This document shows positions 42,925-49,762 of a stretch of DNA of 64,000 nucleotides, piece after piece. Every line of letters starts with the position of its first letter. The first letter of the stretch is position 1. The stretch covers positions 1 to 64,000 of the forward strand of contig JAUICM010000009.1 in the NCBI GenBank assembly GCA_030427885.1, in the 5' to 3' direction. The notes below the pieces were generated by a model. The model had not been told where the DNA came from and did no database searches. It saw only the letters and a list, made by a program, of their open reading frames with translations. The position numbers were made by a program, and so were the translations under genes. Source of the stretch: Rhodothermia bacterium. GTDB lineage: Bacteria > Bacteroidota > Rhodothermia > Balneolales > Balneolaceae.

Positions 42925-43308
42925 TTACTCATCCATTTCTTTCAATCTTCGTTCTGAAAGAGCCAGATTCAGTTTGCTCGAAAAACTGAGTGCTTCGTTT
43001 TTATCCTGCCGTTTGATATCCAAGGCAATTCGTCCCTGGGAGCTTCCAGGCAGAGGATCAAGGAAGACCATCTTGGTGCTTTGAATAATCAGCTTGGTTT
43101 TGAAGAGGCCTTTTTTGATATGAATGTCTTTCAGGTAGCGGACATCGAAGGAGAACTTATTCAGCGTACTTATCGCGGTTCCCATCATATCATATACTTT
43201 ATACTCGAACATGATCTCTTCTCCCTCAATGCTCAAGACCCCGCGAACTTCCTTCATTACATTAGCATCAGAAGGATTATAAAGTGAATAATGGTATGCG
43301 AGGCTCAT
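42925..43308 (-). CDS. Uncharacterised protein, paralogue of the preceding gene
   Basis: 127 aa, no signal or membrane segment. It shares with the 43305-43691 protein the core IKKGLFKTKLII (FKKGLFSSKLIL in the other) and the C-terminal SSKLNLALSERRLKEMD (SSNLNLALSEEKLKELN), which shows recent-to-moderate duplication. Both appear rich in beta strands with a final helix, compatible with a PH-like fold, though that is inference. Overlaps the upstream paralogue by 4 nt. Confidence 0.75.
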   Translation of the reverse strand: MSLAYHYSLYNPSDANVMKEVRGVLSIEGEEIMFEYKVYDMMGTAISTLNKFSFDVRYLKDIHIKKGLFKTKLIIQSTKMVFLDPLPGSSQGRIALDIKRQDKNEALSFSSKLNLALSERRLKEMDE

Positions 43309-43691
43309 TCTGAATCACTATTTAATTCTTTCAGCTTTTCTTCTGAAAGGGCCAGATTCAGGTTAGAGGAAATATTAGCAGCGATATCCCTGTGCTTTCT
43401 TTTAACCTTAAGTACGCGCTCTGTTAGTGCATCACCAGGTAGTTCAGCAAATACAGCGGGTCTTTTTCCGTGAAGAATGAGTTTGCTTGAGAAGAGTCCT
43501 TTTTTGAATTCCACCAGATCAATTCCGGAAAGATCGATCTCAGTGGACATAAGATCAGACTTATAGGCTTCGAGGATGGCGTCTTTTTTCTGATACTCAA
43601 AGATCAGTTTTCCCTTCTCCACGCGCAGAATTCCTTCCAGTTTCATGAAGCCGCCGTTAAGATCATCGATATAAAATGGTAAGCTGCGCAT
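43305..43691 (-). CDS. Uncharacterised protein, first of a paralogous pair
   Basis: 128 aa, soluble. Begins MRSLPFYIDDLNGGFMKLEG, continues with VEKGKLIFEYQKKDA and the core FKKGLFSSKLIL shared with its neighbour. Cytoplasmic by lack of any signal. Transcribed before the 42925-43308 gene, with a 4-nt ATGA overlap, so both are probably made together and may form a heteromer. I do not recognise the family. Confidence 0.75.
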   Translation of the reverse strand: MRSLPFYIDDLNGGFMKLEGILRVEKGKLIFEYQKKDAILEAYKSDLMSTEIDLSGIDLVEFKKGLFSSKLILHGKRPAVFAELPGDALTERVLKVKRKHRDIAANISSNLNLALSEEKLKELNSDSE

Positions 43692-43759
43692 GTTATGTAT
43701 TGATATTTAGTGATTTATAGACTGAGTGAAATATTTCAAAAAAAGTACAAAAAATCTGT

Positions 43760-43765
43760 AAGGAG
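43760..43765 (+). promoter_or_regulatory. Shine-Dalgarno of the 27-codon ORF
   Basis: AAGGAG, 6 nt before the ATG at 43772. It is the better-than-usual SD that makes the short frame downstream look translated. Confidence 0.6.
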
Positions 43766-43771
43766 TGCCTC

Positions 43772-43855
43772 ATGAAATGGTCTGACTTAACAAGCATAGA
43801 GACGACAATCATTGCCTTGAGAGTAGAGATACTCTCAATGTCCTTCCAGGGGTAA
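43772..43855 (+). CDS. 27-aa ORF, candidate leader peptide or microprotein
   Basis: ATG with SD AAGGAG, 27 codons, TAA at 43853-43855. The peptide begins MKWSDLTSIETT and ends LSMSFQG. Inside the frame is a perfect 9-bp hairpin (TTGAGAGTA/TACTCTCAA, 43817-43838) closed by a GAGA (GNRA) tetraloop. The stop codon lies in the left arm of the terminator at 43850-43887, so a ribosome at the stop would cover that arm. Next gene downstream is the 1935-aa LTD gene (ATG 43955). It may be a leader peptide that couples translation to termination, an independent small protein, or the spacer is an sRNA. No family recognised. Confidence 0.5.
   Translation: MKWSDLTSIETTIIALRVEILSMSFQG
43817..43838 (+). ncRNA. 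GNRA-capped hairpin within the candidate leader RNA
   Basis: TTGAGAGTA-GAGA-TACTCTCAA: nine perfect pairs and a GNRA loop, followed 11 nt on by a terminator hairpin. Such paired structures are typical of small structured RNAs. Whether the RNA acts alone or as an mRNA leader is unknown. Confidence 0.45.
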
Positions 43856-43887
43856 AAGGTGGAAAATCCTTTTACCCTATTTTTTTG
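43850..43887 (+). terminator. Intrinsic terminator or attenuator before the LTD gene
   Basis: GGGTAAAAGG (43850-43859) pairs with CCTTTTACCC (43868-43877), then a run of T. It lies 67 nt before the LTD ATG and on the same strand; no other plus-strand gene lies upstream between asd and here. Confidence 0.85.
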
Positions 43888-43954
43888 CTTTAAGTTATGG
43901 TTAAGCTACACATCTGCTATTGATAAAGTGCGATCTTGAAGCTATCCTCGGTTC

Positions 43955-46900
43955 ATGAGGGTTATGATCATTCTTTTTTTATTGTGTTATCCTGTTTTGG
44001 CTACAGCTCAAAACTTTGAAGATAGTTTTACCGATGGGGATTTTACAGCTGATCCGGTATGGAGTGGCGATACGGGTAATTTCATTGTTTTTGATCTGAA
44101 TGGAAATAATGTACTGCGTTTGGATGCTTCGGCAGCGGGGAGTTCATATCTGTCAACACCGTCGACCGTTGTAACAGGATCATGGGAGTTTTTTGTACGT
44201 ATTGACGGGAGTGCCCCTTCAGGAGGAAATAAAGCCGAGATCTTTCTGATGAGTGATATTGCTGATCTTTCCGGATCTGTAAATGGATATGCTGTAAGGA
44301 TCGGGGAAACCGGGGATGATGAGTTTAAGATCGTCCGGTTTGATGCAGGTTCCGAAGCAGCAGTTGTTCTTTCGGACACCACCATATTTGATGCCGGAGG
44401 ATCCTATCGAATCAAAGTTAGCAGGGATGGAAGTGGTAATTGGTCAATAGAGGTGGGGGAAGGATATAACGGCGAGCTGAAGAATGCCGGTTCAACTGCA
44501 AATGATAATACCTATACCTCAGCTGCATATTTTGGAGTAAAAACCACCTACACAAGTACTCGTGTGGATGATTTTTACTTTGATTTCAAGATAGACGAGC
44601 CCCCTTTATTGATCAGCAGCTTCACTCAAAATAATGATACCGATGTTGATATAAGTTTTTCCAGGGATATTGATGTGGGTACAGTTTCAGGCACTGATTT
44701 TACACTTAATGGCTCGCTGAATCCCCAGTCATTTATCTCACTTGCATCAGATCAGTTGAGGATAAGCTTTGCTTCAGATATCCCTGGTGGTGAGAATTCC
44801 TTAGTGGTTTCAGGAATCGAATCATCTGGTAATGAAGTAACTCTGGAGGATACTACTCTAAATCTCATTGTTTTTAACAACTATGAATCCGGAGACATTA
44901 TCATCAATGAATTTCTGAAAGATCCGGCGACAGGCTCTGATTTAGACGAATATATTGAACTCAGGAATACGACTTCAAAATATCTGAATCTGAAAGACTG
45001 GAAAATTGGGGATAATAGTTCCTTAGTTACAATTTCGAATAGTGATCTGGCACTGTTGCCGGATAGTTTTATAGTAATAACAGATGACGCAGCAGCACTG
45101 ACAGGAGAATTTGGGGCAGGTCAGTATGTGGAGGCAGAAACTGATCTCCCTTCTCTTAATAATGATTCCGATCAGATACGTTTATTCGACTCAACAGGAG
45201 GAATAGCTGATTCTCTGAAATATGACTCAGATTGGGGAGGGGTGGATATCGCAGTGGAAAGGATCTCGAAGAATGTTGCGTCAACCTTACGGGCCAATTG
45301 GGGAGATTCACCAAACAGTTCCGGTGGTACACCGGGAAGGACTAATGAGATACCCAAGGATGAAACCGCTCCATCGATAACAGGGTCATCGGTTGAATCG
45401 AAAACGAAAGTCATAGTAGCTTTCTCAGAAACAGTTACAGATGCCACTGCTTCAAATTCATCAAACTATGAGCTGGTTATCGATCTGGCCGACGGTGGTT
45501 TCAGCAGAAGTTATGACGAGAGCGACTCGCCTGGAATTTCTTCAGTTGAGGTGATATCCGGAGATTCTGTAGGGATCAATCTGGAAGGTGAACTTTTTGA
45601 GTTAATAGAGGAAGATTACTGGAAGATCAGGGTCAGCGGTGCAGAAGATATATTTGGAAATTCAGAGGCAGATTCAGTTTCTTTTCAATATGTGACTCCC
45701 GCAAGATCTGATTCTGGTGAGGTGTTGATCACAGAATTCATGTACGATCCGGCTACTGAATTTACTGAGTTCATTGAATTGTATAATACTACGGACAGTA
45801 CATTCAACCTCAGGAACTGGACCGTAAATGATAATTCTGCCAGTCCAAGAACGATCATATATTCTGACTTCTATTTAAGATCGGGTGATTACGTGGTATT
45901 GGCACCCGACAGCACTATAGTTACCAGTTTCCCGGGTACGCCACTGATCCGGGTTTCCGGATTTCAGTCGTTAAATAATAGTTCCGACAATATTGTGATC
46001 CGTAATGAGAACGGAACACTTATAGATTCGTTGAGCTATTCTTCTGACTGGGGTGGTGATGAGGTATCACTGGAACGGAAAAGTTTGGCCATTTCATCGG
46101 TTTACCAGGCGAACTGGGGAGATTCACCAAACATATCGGGTGGAACCCCGGGAAAAGCGAATGAGATTGAAACAGATAGCAGCGCTCCGGAATTGAGTTC
46201 ATTTAGTATAGTAAATGACAGCACCCTTCAATTGATCTTTTCGGAAACACTGGACCGGACAACAGCTGAAGACGAAGGTAATTATCAGGTTAATACCTTT
46301 ATGGATATGCCGGTAGCTATTTCTGTGGATGAAGCTCTTTTCCACGAACCGGATACAGTATTACTTAGCTTGCCTGCGAAACTCAATTCCGGTGATTTTA
46401 CTCTTATCGTTGAAGATCTGGAGGATATTTTTGGCAATGCCATCGATCGGATCGATTACGAGTTTGAATACGTGGTGGTTTCTCAGGCAGTATCCGGTGA
46501 TGTGGCCGTGAATGAATTTATGTACGACCCTGCCGAAAACTTCAGTGAATTTATTGAACTCTACAATCACACAGATAAAAACTTCGATCTTCAGGGCTGG
46601 TCGATCAATGATAATTCAGGAACCAGGAAAACCATCAGCAACCAAACCCTGTATCTGAAAGCAGGCGAGTATTTAGTACTTGGTCCGGATAGCACTTTGG
46701 TGAATAGCTTTCCGGGAATAGCATTAAAAAGAGTTTCCGGATTCCCTTCGTTAAATAACAGCACTGATGAGATCGTGCTTAAAGATAAAAATGGTGTACG
46801 TATTGATTCACTGAGCTATTCCAATGAGTGGGGAGGCGACCAGGTCTCACTTGAACGAAGATCAGTGGAATTCTCAGCTGCACTGCAACCCAACTGGGGA

Positions 46901-49762
46901 GATAGTCCTTCTGAGAATTTAGCTACCCCGGGATCCGAAAACCTGATTGGGGCCGATACCACAGCGCCCGATCTCGAAAGTTTTAGTTTCAAAAATGACA
47001 GTACCATAATTCTGGAGTTTAACGAACGGATCAAAGATGGGCCGGCCTCCGATCCTGACAACTTTTTTATATCCGTACCATTGTCCGCGAATATAGCAGG
47101 TGCTGAATCACAGGAAAATGAAAAATTGAGAGTTACTTATTCGGCTCCAAAAACCATAGAATTAGTGTTTAAAGAGTCAATATATACAGGACACCTGCCA
47201 AACAGGCTGGTTATACAGAATCAGGAGGATGTATTCGGAAATGTGGCCGAAGATATTTCCAGAGAGTATGAGTTAATTGCTTCTGAAACAGCCGAACCCG
47301 GAGATGTTTTTATTAATGAATTCATGTATGACCCGGCTGACGGATATTCTGAGTTTGTGGAGATCTACAACAGTTCCAATAAAGTGATTAACCTGAATGG
47401 CTGGACCATTAATGACAATAGCGGGACCAGAAGAGTGATCACCAATCAGAACTTCTATGTAAAGGGAAGTGGAACAAACGATGCGATGGCCAATAGCTAT
47501 GTGATCCTGGTTCCGGATAGCACTATGATCGATCGGGTGGGATTGGGCAAGACAGTTGTGGTAGGTAGCTTATTTCCGTCACTTACAAATACTACAGATG
47601 CAATTGTGATCAGGAATGCCGACGGGGTATTGATGGATTCACTTACTTATACAAACAGCTGGGGCGGGGATGAGATCTCCCTGGAAAGACGAACGATTGA
47701 AATACCGGCAAGTTTTCAGGCGAATTGGGGAGATAGTCCTTCGGAAGACCTGGCAACTCCCGGCGAGCGAAATGAGATCGGTAAAGATACAGAGCCTCCT
47801 ATTGCGTTAAATGCATACTTCTCTGACGATCAGACGGTGATACTGCAGTTCAATGAAGAACTGAATGAGGAAGACGCAACGGATCCGGAGAATTATTCAC
47901 TCACACCTGATCTGCCTGTGTCTGATGTTTTTTACGCCGACAATGTGGTGACAATTCAAACATCGGAGGCTTTTACTGATGGCCAGGAGTATGAGCTTTG
48001 GGTAGGAGGAATGAGAGATGTGTTTGGTAATATCGCTGAGCCAGATACACTTATATTTACATACTACTCCATCTCCGAAGTGGAAAAAATGAATGTGGTG
48101 ATCAATGAGATCATGTATCGCCCCAAAGATGCTCAATCCGCTGAATTTGTTGAGTTGTTCAATCGTTCTGATAAGAATTTCGATCTGTCCGGCTGGGTAT
48201 TTCAGGATGCAGGAAATAACGATGTTGAACTACCGGCAGGCACTTTTCTGCCAAAAGGAGGATATCTGGTGTTAGCTGATCGCGAAGATTTTGCAGCCGG
48301 ACTGGATAATGCGGTGTATCTCCCGGGATTCCCTGGCTTAAATGATAGTGGAGACGGAGTCATAATTAAAGATGCAGAAGGGGTGATCATCGATAAGCTA
48401 TTTTATGAGAACAGCTGGGGAGGAAGTACACCCGGGATCTCACTTGAAAGAAAAGACCCGGCATCTGCCTCAAATGATCCTTCAAACTGGAGGTCCAGTA
48501 CAGCTTCAGGGGGATCTAGTGTTGGTACTCAAAGCTCGGTATATGAAGTGGATACCACACCGCCTTCAATACTCTTCGCCAGCCGCGGAGATTCTACAGT
48601 ATTCGTGGCATTTTCAGAATTTATCAGCATTTCATCGAATACAAAGTTTTTTGTGTTGGGTGAAGAGGTAGATATTGTCGAATTCGATTCAACGAAACCC
48701 AATACCATACTTCTGGAAAACCCAGACATCGAGGTAGTTACACAGCCAGTTGAAAAAAATATGGGTGGGGCTGAAGACGGACTAAGGGTTACCAATATCA
48801 AAGATATAAAGGGGAACAGCCTTACCGAAGCAACGAACTCGCTGGCGTATAAGGTCCGTGATGGATTTGTGGTGATCAATGAGATCATGTATGATCCGCT
48901 TTCCAACAGCGATGATAACCTGCCCGACCAGGCTGAATACATTGAGCTGTACAACCCGACTGAATATGCGGTTTCACTGGAAGGGATTGTGCTCCATGAT
49001 GCGCCGGATGAAGAAGGCGAAGTGCGGACACTTGAGCCATTTTCGTCTCAGTTTAAATGGATCCCCCCAGGAAGTTATTTCCTGATCTATTCCGAGGATC
49101 AAACCGATGTATTCGCCGAAAGTAAGGTTGCTGTTTATTTTGAAATGACAGAAGCTTCAGATCAATTTACAATGCGGGTGGATCGGTCCAGTCTGAGTCT
49201 GGCTTCTTCCGGGGATGCTGTGTACCTGGCTGACAGCACCGGCGCAGTGGTCGATTCGGTGTATTATGATGAGAGCTGGCAGAATCCAAATGTATACGAT
49301 ACCGACGGGATCGCTCTGGAGCGGATCAATCCATTGGGCCCGGGAAATGAATCCTCAAACTGGAGTTCCAGTACCCATTCAAGTGGTGGAACCCCGAACA
49401 TGGAAAATACCATCTACCAGGCTCCGGGAGCATTACCGGATGGTGTGGGCATTAGTTTCTCCCCTAATCCTTTCTCTCCGGATGATGACGGCTTCGAGGA
49501 TAACCTGTTCATCAACTATACTCTGGATGCTCCTGACTATTTATTGAAAGTGCGCATTTTTGACCGCTATGGCCGGCAGGTACGGGAACTTGCAAATGGC
49601 AAGCAGGCCGGATTCCAGGGTTCACTGATCTGGGACGGACTCACCGACAACAATAACTCCAACCGTGTGGGTATCTATATTGTACTGTTTGAGGCATATA
49701 ACAGCGCCAGCGGAAAAGATGTGACTTTCAAGAAGACCGTTGTTCTGGCGAGGATGTTCTGA
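43955..49762 (+). CDS. Giant secreted lamin-tail-domain (LTD) surface protein
   Basis: 1935 aa. Signal peptide to about residue 19 (VLATAQ). Residues ~20-210 resemble a concanavalin/LamG-like jelly roll. Then six LTD domains start near residues 313, 587, 847, 1115, 1379 and 1637 (for example NEFMYDPAENFSEFIELYN, NEIMYRPKDAQSAEFVELF), separated by SbsA/Big_5-like Ig domains with the pattern STIILEFNE. The last ~105 residues (SFSPNPFSPDDDGFEDNLF ... FKKTVVLARMF) are a FlgD/CHU_C-like C-terminal domain typical of surface-exported proteins of this group. Likely binds DNA, polysaccharide or serves as adhesin; function not determined. Confidence 0.9.
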   Translation: MRVMIILFLLCYPVLATAQNFEDSFTDGDFTADPVWSGDTGNFIVFDLNGNNVLRLDASAAGSSYLSTPSTVVTGSWEFFVRIDGSAPSGGNKAEIFLMSDIADLSGSVNGYAVRIGETGDDEFKIVRFDAGSEAAVVLSDTTIFDAGGSYRIKVSRDGSGNWSIEVGEGYNGELKNAGSTANDNTYTSAAYFGVKTTYTSTRVDDFYFDFKIDEPPLLISSFTQNNDTDVDISFSRDIDVGTVSGTDFTLNGSLNPQSFISLASDQLRISFASDIPGGENSLVVSGIESSGNEVTLEDTTLNLIVFNNYESGDIIINEFLKDPATGSDLDEYIELRNTTSKYLNLKDWKIGDNSSLVTISNSDLALLPDSFIVITDDAAALTGEFGAGQYVEAETDLPSLNNDSDQIRLFDSTGGIADSLKYDSDWGGVDIAVERISKNVASTLRANWGDSPNSSGGTPGRTNEIPKDETAPSITGSSVESKTKVIVAFSETVTDATASNSSNYELVIDLADGGFSRSYDESDSPGISSVEVISGDSVGINLEGELFELIEEDYWKIRVSGAEDIFGNSEADSVSFQYVTPARSDSGEVLITEFMYDPATEFTEFIELYNTTDSTFNLRNWTVNDNSASPRTIIYSDFYLRSGDYVVLAPDSTIVTSFPGTPLIRVSGFQSLNNSSDNIVIRNENGTLIDSLSYSSDWGGDEVSLERKSLAISSVYQANWGDSPNISGGTPGKANEIETDSSAPELSSFSIVNDSTLQLIFSETLDRTTAEDEGNYQVNTFMDMPVAISVDEALFHEPDTVLLSLPAKLNSGDFTLIVEDLEDIFGNAIDRIDYEFEYVVVSQAVSGDVAVNEFMYDPAENFSEFIELYNHTDKNFDLQGWSINDNSGTRKTISNQTLYLKAGEYLVLGPDSTLVNSFPGIALKRVSGFPSLNNSTDEIVLKDKNGVRIDSLSYSNEWGGDQVSLERRSVEFSAALQPNWGDSPSENLATPGSENLIGADTTAPDLESFSFKNDSTIILEFNERIKDGPASDPDNFFISVPLSANIAGAESQENEKLRVTYSAPKTIELVFKESIYTGHLPNRLVIQNQEDVFGNVAEDISREYELIASETAEPGDVFINEFMYDPADGYSEFVEIYNSSNKVINLNGWTINDNSGTRRVITNQNFYVKGSGTNDAMANSYVILVPDSTMIDRVGLGKTVVVGSLFPSLTNTTDAIVIRNADGVLMDSLTYTNSWGGDEISLERRTIEIPASFQANWGDSPSEDLATPGERNEIGKDTEPPIALNAYFSDDQTVILQFNEELNEEDATDPENYSLTPDLPVSDVFYADNVVTIQTSEAFTDGQEYELWVGGMRDVFGNIAEPDTLIFTYYSISEVEKMNVVINEIMYRPKDAQSAEFVELFNRSDKNFDLSGWVFQDAGNNDVELPAGTFLPKGGYLVLADREDFAAGLDNAVYLPGFPGLNDSGDGVIIKDAEGVIIDKLFYENSWGGSTPGISLERKDPASASNDPSNWRSSTASGGSSVGTQSSVYEVDTTPPSILFASRGDSTVFVAFSEFISISSNTKFFVLGEEVDIVEFDSTKPNTILLENPDIEVVTQPVEKNMGGAEDGLRVTNIKDIKGNSLTEATNSLAYKVRDGFVVINEIMYDPLSNSDDNLPDQAEYIELYNPTEYAVSLEGIVLHDAPDEEGEVRTLEPFSSQFKWIPPGSYFLIYSEDQTDVFAESKVAVYFEMTEASDQFTMRVDRSSLSLASSGDAVYLADSTGAVVDSVYYDESWQNPNVYDTDGIALERINPLGPGNESSNWSSSTHSSGGTPNMENTIYQAPGALPDGVGISFSPNPFSPDDDGFEDNLFINYTLDAPDYLLKVRIFDRYGRQVRELANGKQAGFQGSLIWDGLTDNNNSNRVGIYIVLFEAYNSASGKDVTFKKTVVLARMF

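Follow-up and report, generated by a model that had tools for sequence, protein, structure and literature searches.

MicA, RybB and MicL are SigmaE-dependent small RNAs of enterobacteria, and SigmaX (ComX) is the alternative sigma factor of the streptococcal late-competence regulon. In the Balneolaeota, the published LexA box is TTACACATATTTTWTACATA and the core genes of the SOS regulon are lexA, recA and those for error-prone polymerases (PMC7739468). We found no description, in the open-access literature, of a small RNA or of a competence regulator for the Balneolaceae. Here we examine a locus in a 64,000-nucleotide stretch of a Balneolaceae genome (contig JAUICM010000009.1; hereafter the window), and judge it probable that this locus is an independent small-RNA gene, complete with promoter and terminator, driven by an ECF sigma factor as part of a competence-like regulon, and that its RNA acts in trans through the sequence GUCCUU.

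Structure and conservation of the predicted RNA

The gap that we analysed has a divergent gene pair (start 43691) on one side and the LTD gene (43955) on the other; the features in and around it are collected in Table 1. On the minus strand, at 42925–43691, two small genes lie side by side (127 and 128 aa, neither with a Pfam match); they look like tandem paralogues, each matching the same place in several relatives. When the family genomes were searched with the gap, the DNA from ~43700 to 43890 proved strongly conserved in 26 relatives, where it adjoins an LTD homologue. In the alignment the conserved letters begin with AAAAAAGTACAAAAAATC and TGTAAGG and resume, after a spacer of 17 bases most of which vary, with TCTNACT; a hairpin, GTCCTTCCAG and a terminator follow, and the pattern is not that of an ORF. 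The initial annotation had seen here a unit composed of an AAGGAG followed by an ATG (43772) and 27 codons (MKWSDLTSIETTIIALRVEILSMSFQG), a 9-bp hairpin (TTGAGAGTA-GAGA-TACTCTCAA), and a terminator, the left arm of which contains the stop codon of the ORF. All of these elements are present in the sequence, the stop codon being TAA at 43853–43855 and the terminator having 11 pairs followed by a T-run. The conservation test that the initial annotation had set has a divided outcome: in the relatives the two hairpins are kept, as the real signal, while the frame is not. The unit also begins further upstream than had been proposed, with the conserved A-rich stretch at ~43739–43756, and the GNRA loop, GAGA here, is not conserved among relatives.

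Table 1. Features of the locus in the window and related genes, with the basis for each.
Feature	Position	Strand	Basis or remark
A-rich stretch AAAAAAGTACAAAAAATC	43739..43756	+	Conserved just upstream of the -35 box, alignment of 27 sequences
-35 box TGTAAGG of ECF-sigma-type promoter	43757..43763	+	Overlaps the 'Shine-Dalgarno' of the initial annotation; 27 exact genome copies
-10 box TCTGAC, same promoter as TGTAAGG	43781..43786	+	Variants agree by lineage with the sigma-gene site
Predicted small RNA, ~95 nt	43791..43886	+	5' end estimated from the 4–5 nt -10-to-ATG spacing elsewhere
First hairpin, 9 bp, GAGA loop here	43817..43838	+	7 of 9 pairs changed on both sides
GTCCTTCC, single-stranded between hairpins	43840..43847	+	Alignment of 51 copies, folds
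Intrinsic terminator and T-run, loop TGGA here, TTGA in other genera	43850..43886	+	Pairing and alignment
LTD promoter TTGATA-N17-TATCCT, 6 nt before ATG	43920..43948	+	Separate, beyond the terminator
LTD gene, lamin-tail domains, CHU_C type IX secretion signal	43955..49762	+	Constant downstream neighbour, not part of the small-RNA gene
Scattered small nuclease, four-helix and transposase genes	L159, L162, L165, L170, L173, L176, L177, L179, L183, L185, L241, L245 and others		

A model of the unit, R1, was built with a long-range stem, CTGTAAGGA / TCCTTCCAG, which was first taken for a closing helix. Of 92 genomes in the family, 66 contain the unit according to R1, and in almost every case it immediately precedes the LTD gene; weak matches in two genomes of other families (G100 and G126), which have no LTD neighbour, were left out. 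Weaker R1 matches were often confined to the 5' part, TGTAAGG-N17-TCTNAC, with no relation in the DNA beyond it, which is how a promoter would behave. The long-range stem was rejected, as seven of its eight pairs never vary and its left strand is the -35 box, common to loci with unrelated downstream sequence; R1 nevertheless detects the unit, since sequence too is part of the model.

The folded stretch has a z of -2.6. RNAalifold found no pairs in a 51-sequence MAFFT alignment, probably because the hairpins of different genera are misaligned in it, and covariation was therefore judged on a closer set of 23 sequences; in these, both sides had changed in 11 of 19 pairs, whereas shuffles gave 6.5. 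The stems held more G-U than A-C cells (33 vs 14), a bias in favour of the plus strand. Trimmed at the -10 box, the copies adopt similar folds, consisting of an unpaired 5' end, the hairpin, GUCCUU as a single strand, and a terminator whose loop is U(G/U)GA. GTCCTT is nearly invariant in the 51 copies and mostly unpaired in single-sequence folds, and conservation within the RNA is highest in this linker and in the terminator loop. From lineage to lineage the stems differ but GUCCUU is kept, a pattern usual for a trans-acting small RNA with a seed; as a conserved single-stranded stretch between structured parts, GUCCUU is a candidate for that seed. Judged by sequence only, then, the locus has its own promoter and an intrinsic terminator around a short predicted transcript with no conserved ORF, and a small RNA ending at the terminator, put forward by the initial annotation as its second alternative, appears well supported. 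An Rfam search returned no family match at gathering score, and a seed-target search with GGAAGGACA gave 27 matches in the own genome, mostly inside ORFs and with no start-codon pattern.

Some copies of the RNA are unusual. One in G040 (L148:1590-1738; G040:C1:2445789) scores weakly and has a similar hairpin, AATGTCCTTCCAG and a terminator without the TGTAAGG promoter; this copy hints at a trans-acting small RNA with a seed. In the copies of L103 (G063) and L133 (G051) the GTCCTT linker is partly decayed, and both are upstream of small ORFs resembling the N-terminus of a TPR protein, the partner of the sigma factor described below.

Promoter motif, sigma factor and predicted regulon

The motif TGTAAGG-N17-TCTNAC has 27 exact copies in the own genome, compared with one for a reversed control. 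Most genomes of genera g1–g4, g6, g10 and g21 have 10–30 copies, with controls near 0; as written the motif is rare in the diverged genus g11, and outside the family it occurs at background level, with no enrichment. We read 87 sites in four genomes of four genera: 68 are at most 60 nt from a same-strand start codon, and 12 are 4–5 nt before one. The latter suggests leaderless mRNAs with a start site ~5–6 nt after the -10 box, and the spacing at such genes would place the start of the RNA in the window at about 43791, beyond the ORF's ATG. The AAAAAAGTACAAAAAATC stretch ahead of the -35 box is possibly UP-element-like DNA. The spacing of the two boxes and the GTCTNA form of the -10 box resemble those of ECF-sigma promoters such as the one for E. 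coli sigmaE. With two boxes at fixed spacing, repeated before the genes of a putative regulon and at a sigma gene, the motif is most likely an ECF-sigma-dependent promoter that would be transcribed by the sigma holoenzyme.

The sigma gene in question is outside the window (G000:C5:521535-522077) and encodes a 181-aa protein; a promoter site comes directly after its stop codon, before a TPR/membrane protein gene. The protein matches the sigma70-ECF profile TIGR02937 with an E-value of 5e-9, which is below the cut-off of that profile, and a search with its predicted fold (mean pLDDT 82, pTM 0.46) had ECF sigma factors, including E. coli sigmaE, as its top matches. The site after the stop codon is exact in 24 of 30 genomes and has one change in three more. 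The -10 region, moreover, varies by lineage in the same way at the small-RNA and sigma loci, which share GCTCT in g4, TGTCT in most of g2, ACTTAC in g21, and TCATAC in g7 and g11; over the four bases compared the two loci are identical in 22 of 29 genomes and different in seven, a count of agreement that is inflated by kinship among the genomes. This lineage-wise agreement is our best evidence that one sigma serves both sites, and from it and the linkage the ECF sigma at G000:C5:521535-522077 is most likely the one that recognizes the small-RNA promoter. The TPR protein is possibly an anti-sigma. A hairpin such as CAGAATGTATT...AATACATTCTG recurs across genera in the 5' UTR of the TPR gene, between that gene and the sigma gene (L189:7582-7663, L195–L220), and may be another regulatory RNA element.

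Genes for DNA uptake and processing are found downstream of the sites: radC, ssb and the TPR partner of the sigma in all four genomes, comM/yifB and comEC in three, recQ in two, and comF-like, recF and ComEA-like HHH genes once each (ComEC was assigned by TIGR00361 and ComM/YifB by TIGR00368; the ComF match is below its cut-off). Such content would suit a competence regulon, and we predict that the sigma controls DNA-uptake and recombination genes. An integron integrase is also downstream of sites in three of the four genomes, and it has the promoter in three genera (L174 (G000:C5:530077; TIGR02249, 437 bits), L268 and L282), so that integron activity would be linked to this sigma. Small nuclease, four-helix and Y1-transposase genes are also numerous downstream of the sites. 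Scattered GIY-YIG, four-helix 23S_rRNA_IVP, DUF559, GxxExxY and Y1 transposase genes each have their own promoter copy 4–60 nt upstream (Table 1). SOS control by LexA was considered and rejected, since the box published for the phylum is unlike our motif; the LexA regulon of the Balneolaeota shares a phylum and a DNA-repair theme with the predicted regulon, and differs from it in motif and core genes (PMC7739468).

In the mechanism that we propose, the ECF sigma would recognize TGTAAGG-N17-TCTGAC in the window and so drive transcription of the small RNA. The transcript of ~95 nt would have a short unpaired 5' end, the hairpin, single-stranded GUCCUU, and the terminator with its conserved loop, and would be made together with the other targets of the sigma, the DNA-uptake and recombination genes. 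It would most likely act in trans, GUCCUU pairing with other mRNAs. We further speculate that in the Balneolaceae a dedicated ECF sigma controls natural transformation, with the small RNA as the post-transcriptional arm of the regulon, and that the same sigma drives the integron integrase and the scattered small nuclease and transposase genes; about this wider proposal we are close to evenly divided, leaning slightly to doubt.

Alternative readings of the locus

The motif might be the operator of a repressor or activator instead of a sigma promoter, as GTAAG-N18-CTTAC is partly an inverted repeat and the commonest right box, TCTTAC, does form one with TGTAAG. We regard this as very unlikely: the fourth base of the right box can be T, A, G or C, which breaks the repeat in many copies including that of the window, the 12 of 87 sites that are 4–5 nt before start codons are where the -10 box of a leaderless gene is expected, the motif is linked to an ECF sigma gene, and the published LexA box of the phylum is a different one (PMC7739468). 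We give almost no credence to two proposals, one in which ribosomes translating the 27-codon ORF obstruct the terminator so that transcription continues into the LTD gene, and one in which the ORF is a microprotein gene. Both came from the initial annotation and could draw on the position of the stop codon within the left arm of the terminator and on the AAGGAG before the ATG. However, this 'Shine-Dalgarno' is most likely the -35 box of the ECF-sigma-type promoter, and the ATG is in the spacer before the -10 box, so that the start of the ORF should not be transcribed; both precede the predicted start site. The ATG is absent from the corresponding stretch in 16 of the 26 relatives, and the other ten have frames of 2–39 codons that mostly encode different peptides; a conserved translated short ORF, as in a leader-peptide attenuator, was thus not seen among these 26. 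Dinucleotide-shuffled versions of the gap contain an ORF of at least 27 codons in 31% of cases, or in 3.6% if a match resembling a Shine-Dalgarno is also required, and the LTD gene has a promoter of its own. The microprotein fails for the same reasons as attenuation by a translated ORF. We reject the ORF as a gene or leader peptide and consider it most likely an accident, a case that shows how a promoter can imitate a Shine-Dalgarno and a short ORF.

The strongest rival is a cis-acting leader, in which RNA from the ECF promoter normally stops at the terminator and a signal (a ligand, a protein or plain leaky termination) lets transcription run on into the LTD gene, which would then belong to the regulon. 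Of 40 loci examined, 35 do have the LTD gene downstream of the RNA, including loci that have lost the divergent genes, and in several genomes it starts only ~4–40 nt past the terminator, which leaves no room for a promoter; in such genomes read-through may contribute. Against this, 26 of 52 genomes, where 1.5 would be expected, have a separate LTD promoter of the form TTGnnn-N17-TAnnnT beyond the terminator, no conserved antiterminator pairing was seen by eye, and conservation within the RNA peaks in the linker and the terminator loop. There are also copies of the RNA away from the LTD gene (in G041, in G051, and a second copy in G063), and in G021 and G028 (L034 and L033) another same-strand gene is placed between the two. 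We consequently hold the cis-acting leader to be improbable, and prefer the independent small-RNA gene. The LTD ATG is 5–6 nt after its own -10 box in many genomes, and leaderless mRNAs may be common in the family.

Comparison with described systems

If our reading is right, the RNA represents a new RNA family, a named sigma factor can be paired with its promoter and with 27 predicted sites in this genome, and DNA uptake in the Balneolaceae could be induced directly and tested. Under the wider proposal, expression of the integrase and the nuclease and transposase genes would coincide precisely with the entry of foreign DNA into the cell; genes that resemble those of mobile elements would share a promoter with the DNA-uptake machinery, and the timing of element action could be tested. 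The predicted RNA would be like MicA, RybB and MicL in having an ECF-sigma promoter with a GTCTNA-like -10 box, a transcript in the range of ~70–100 nt, hairpins, an intrinsic terminator and a conserved single-stranded seed, but it has no sequence relation to them, and its sigma, -35 box and gene set are different. The likeness of the predicted regulon to that of SigmaX (ComX) is in an alternative sigma with ssb, radC and DNA-uptake genes under its control; the two differ in sigma, promoter and phylum, and the set in the Balneolaceae, where competence is a prediction, includes an integron integrase and small nuclease genes.
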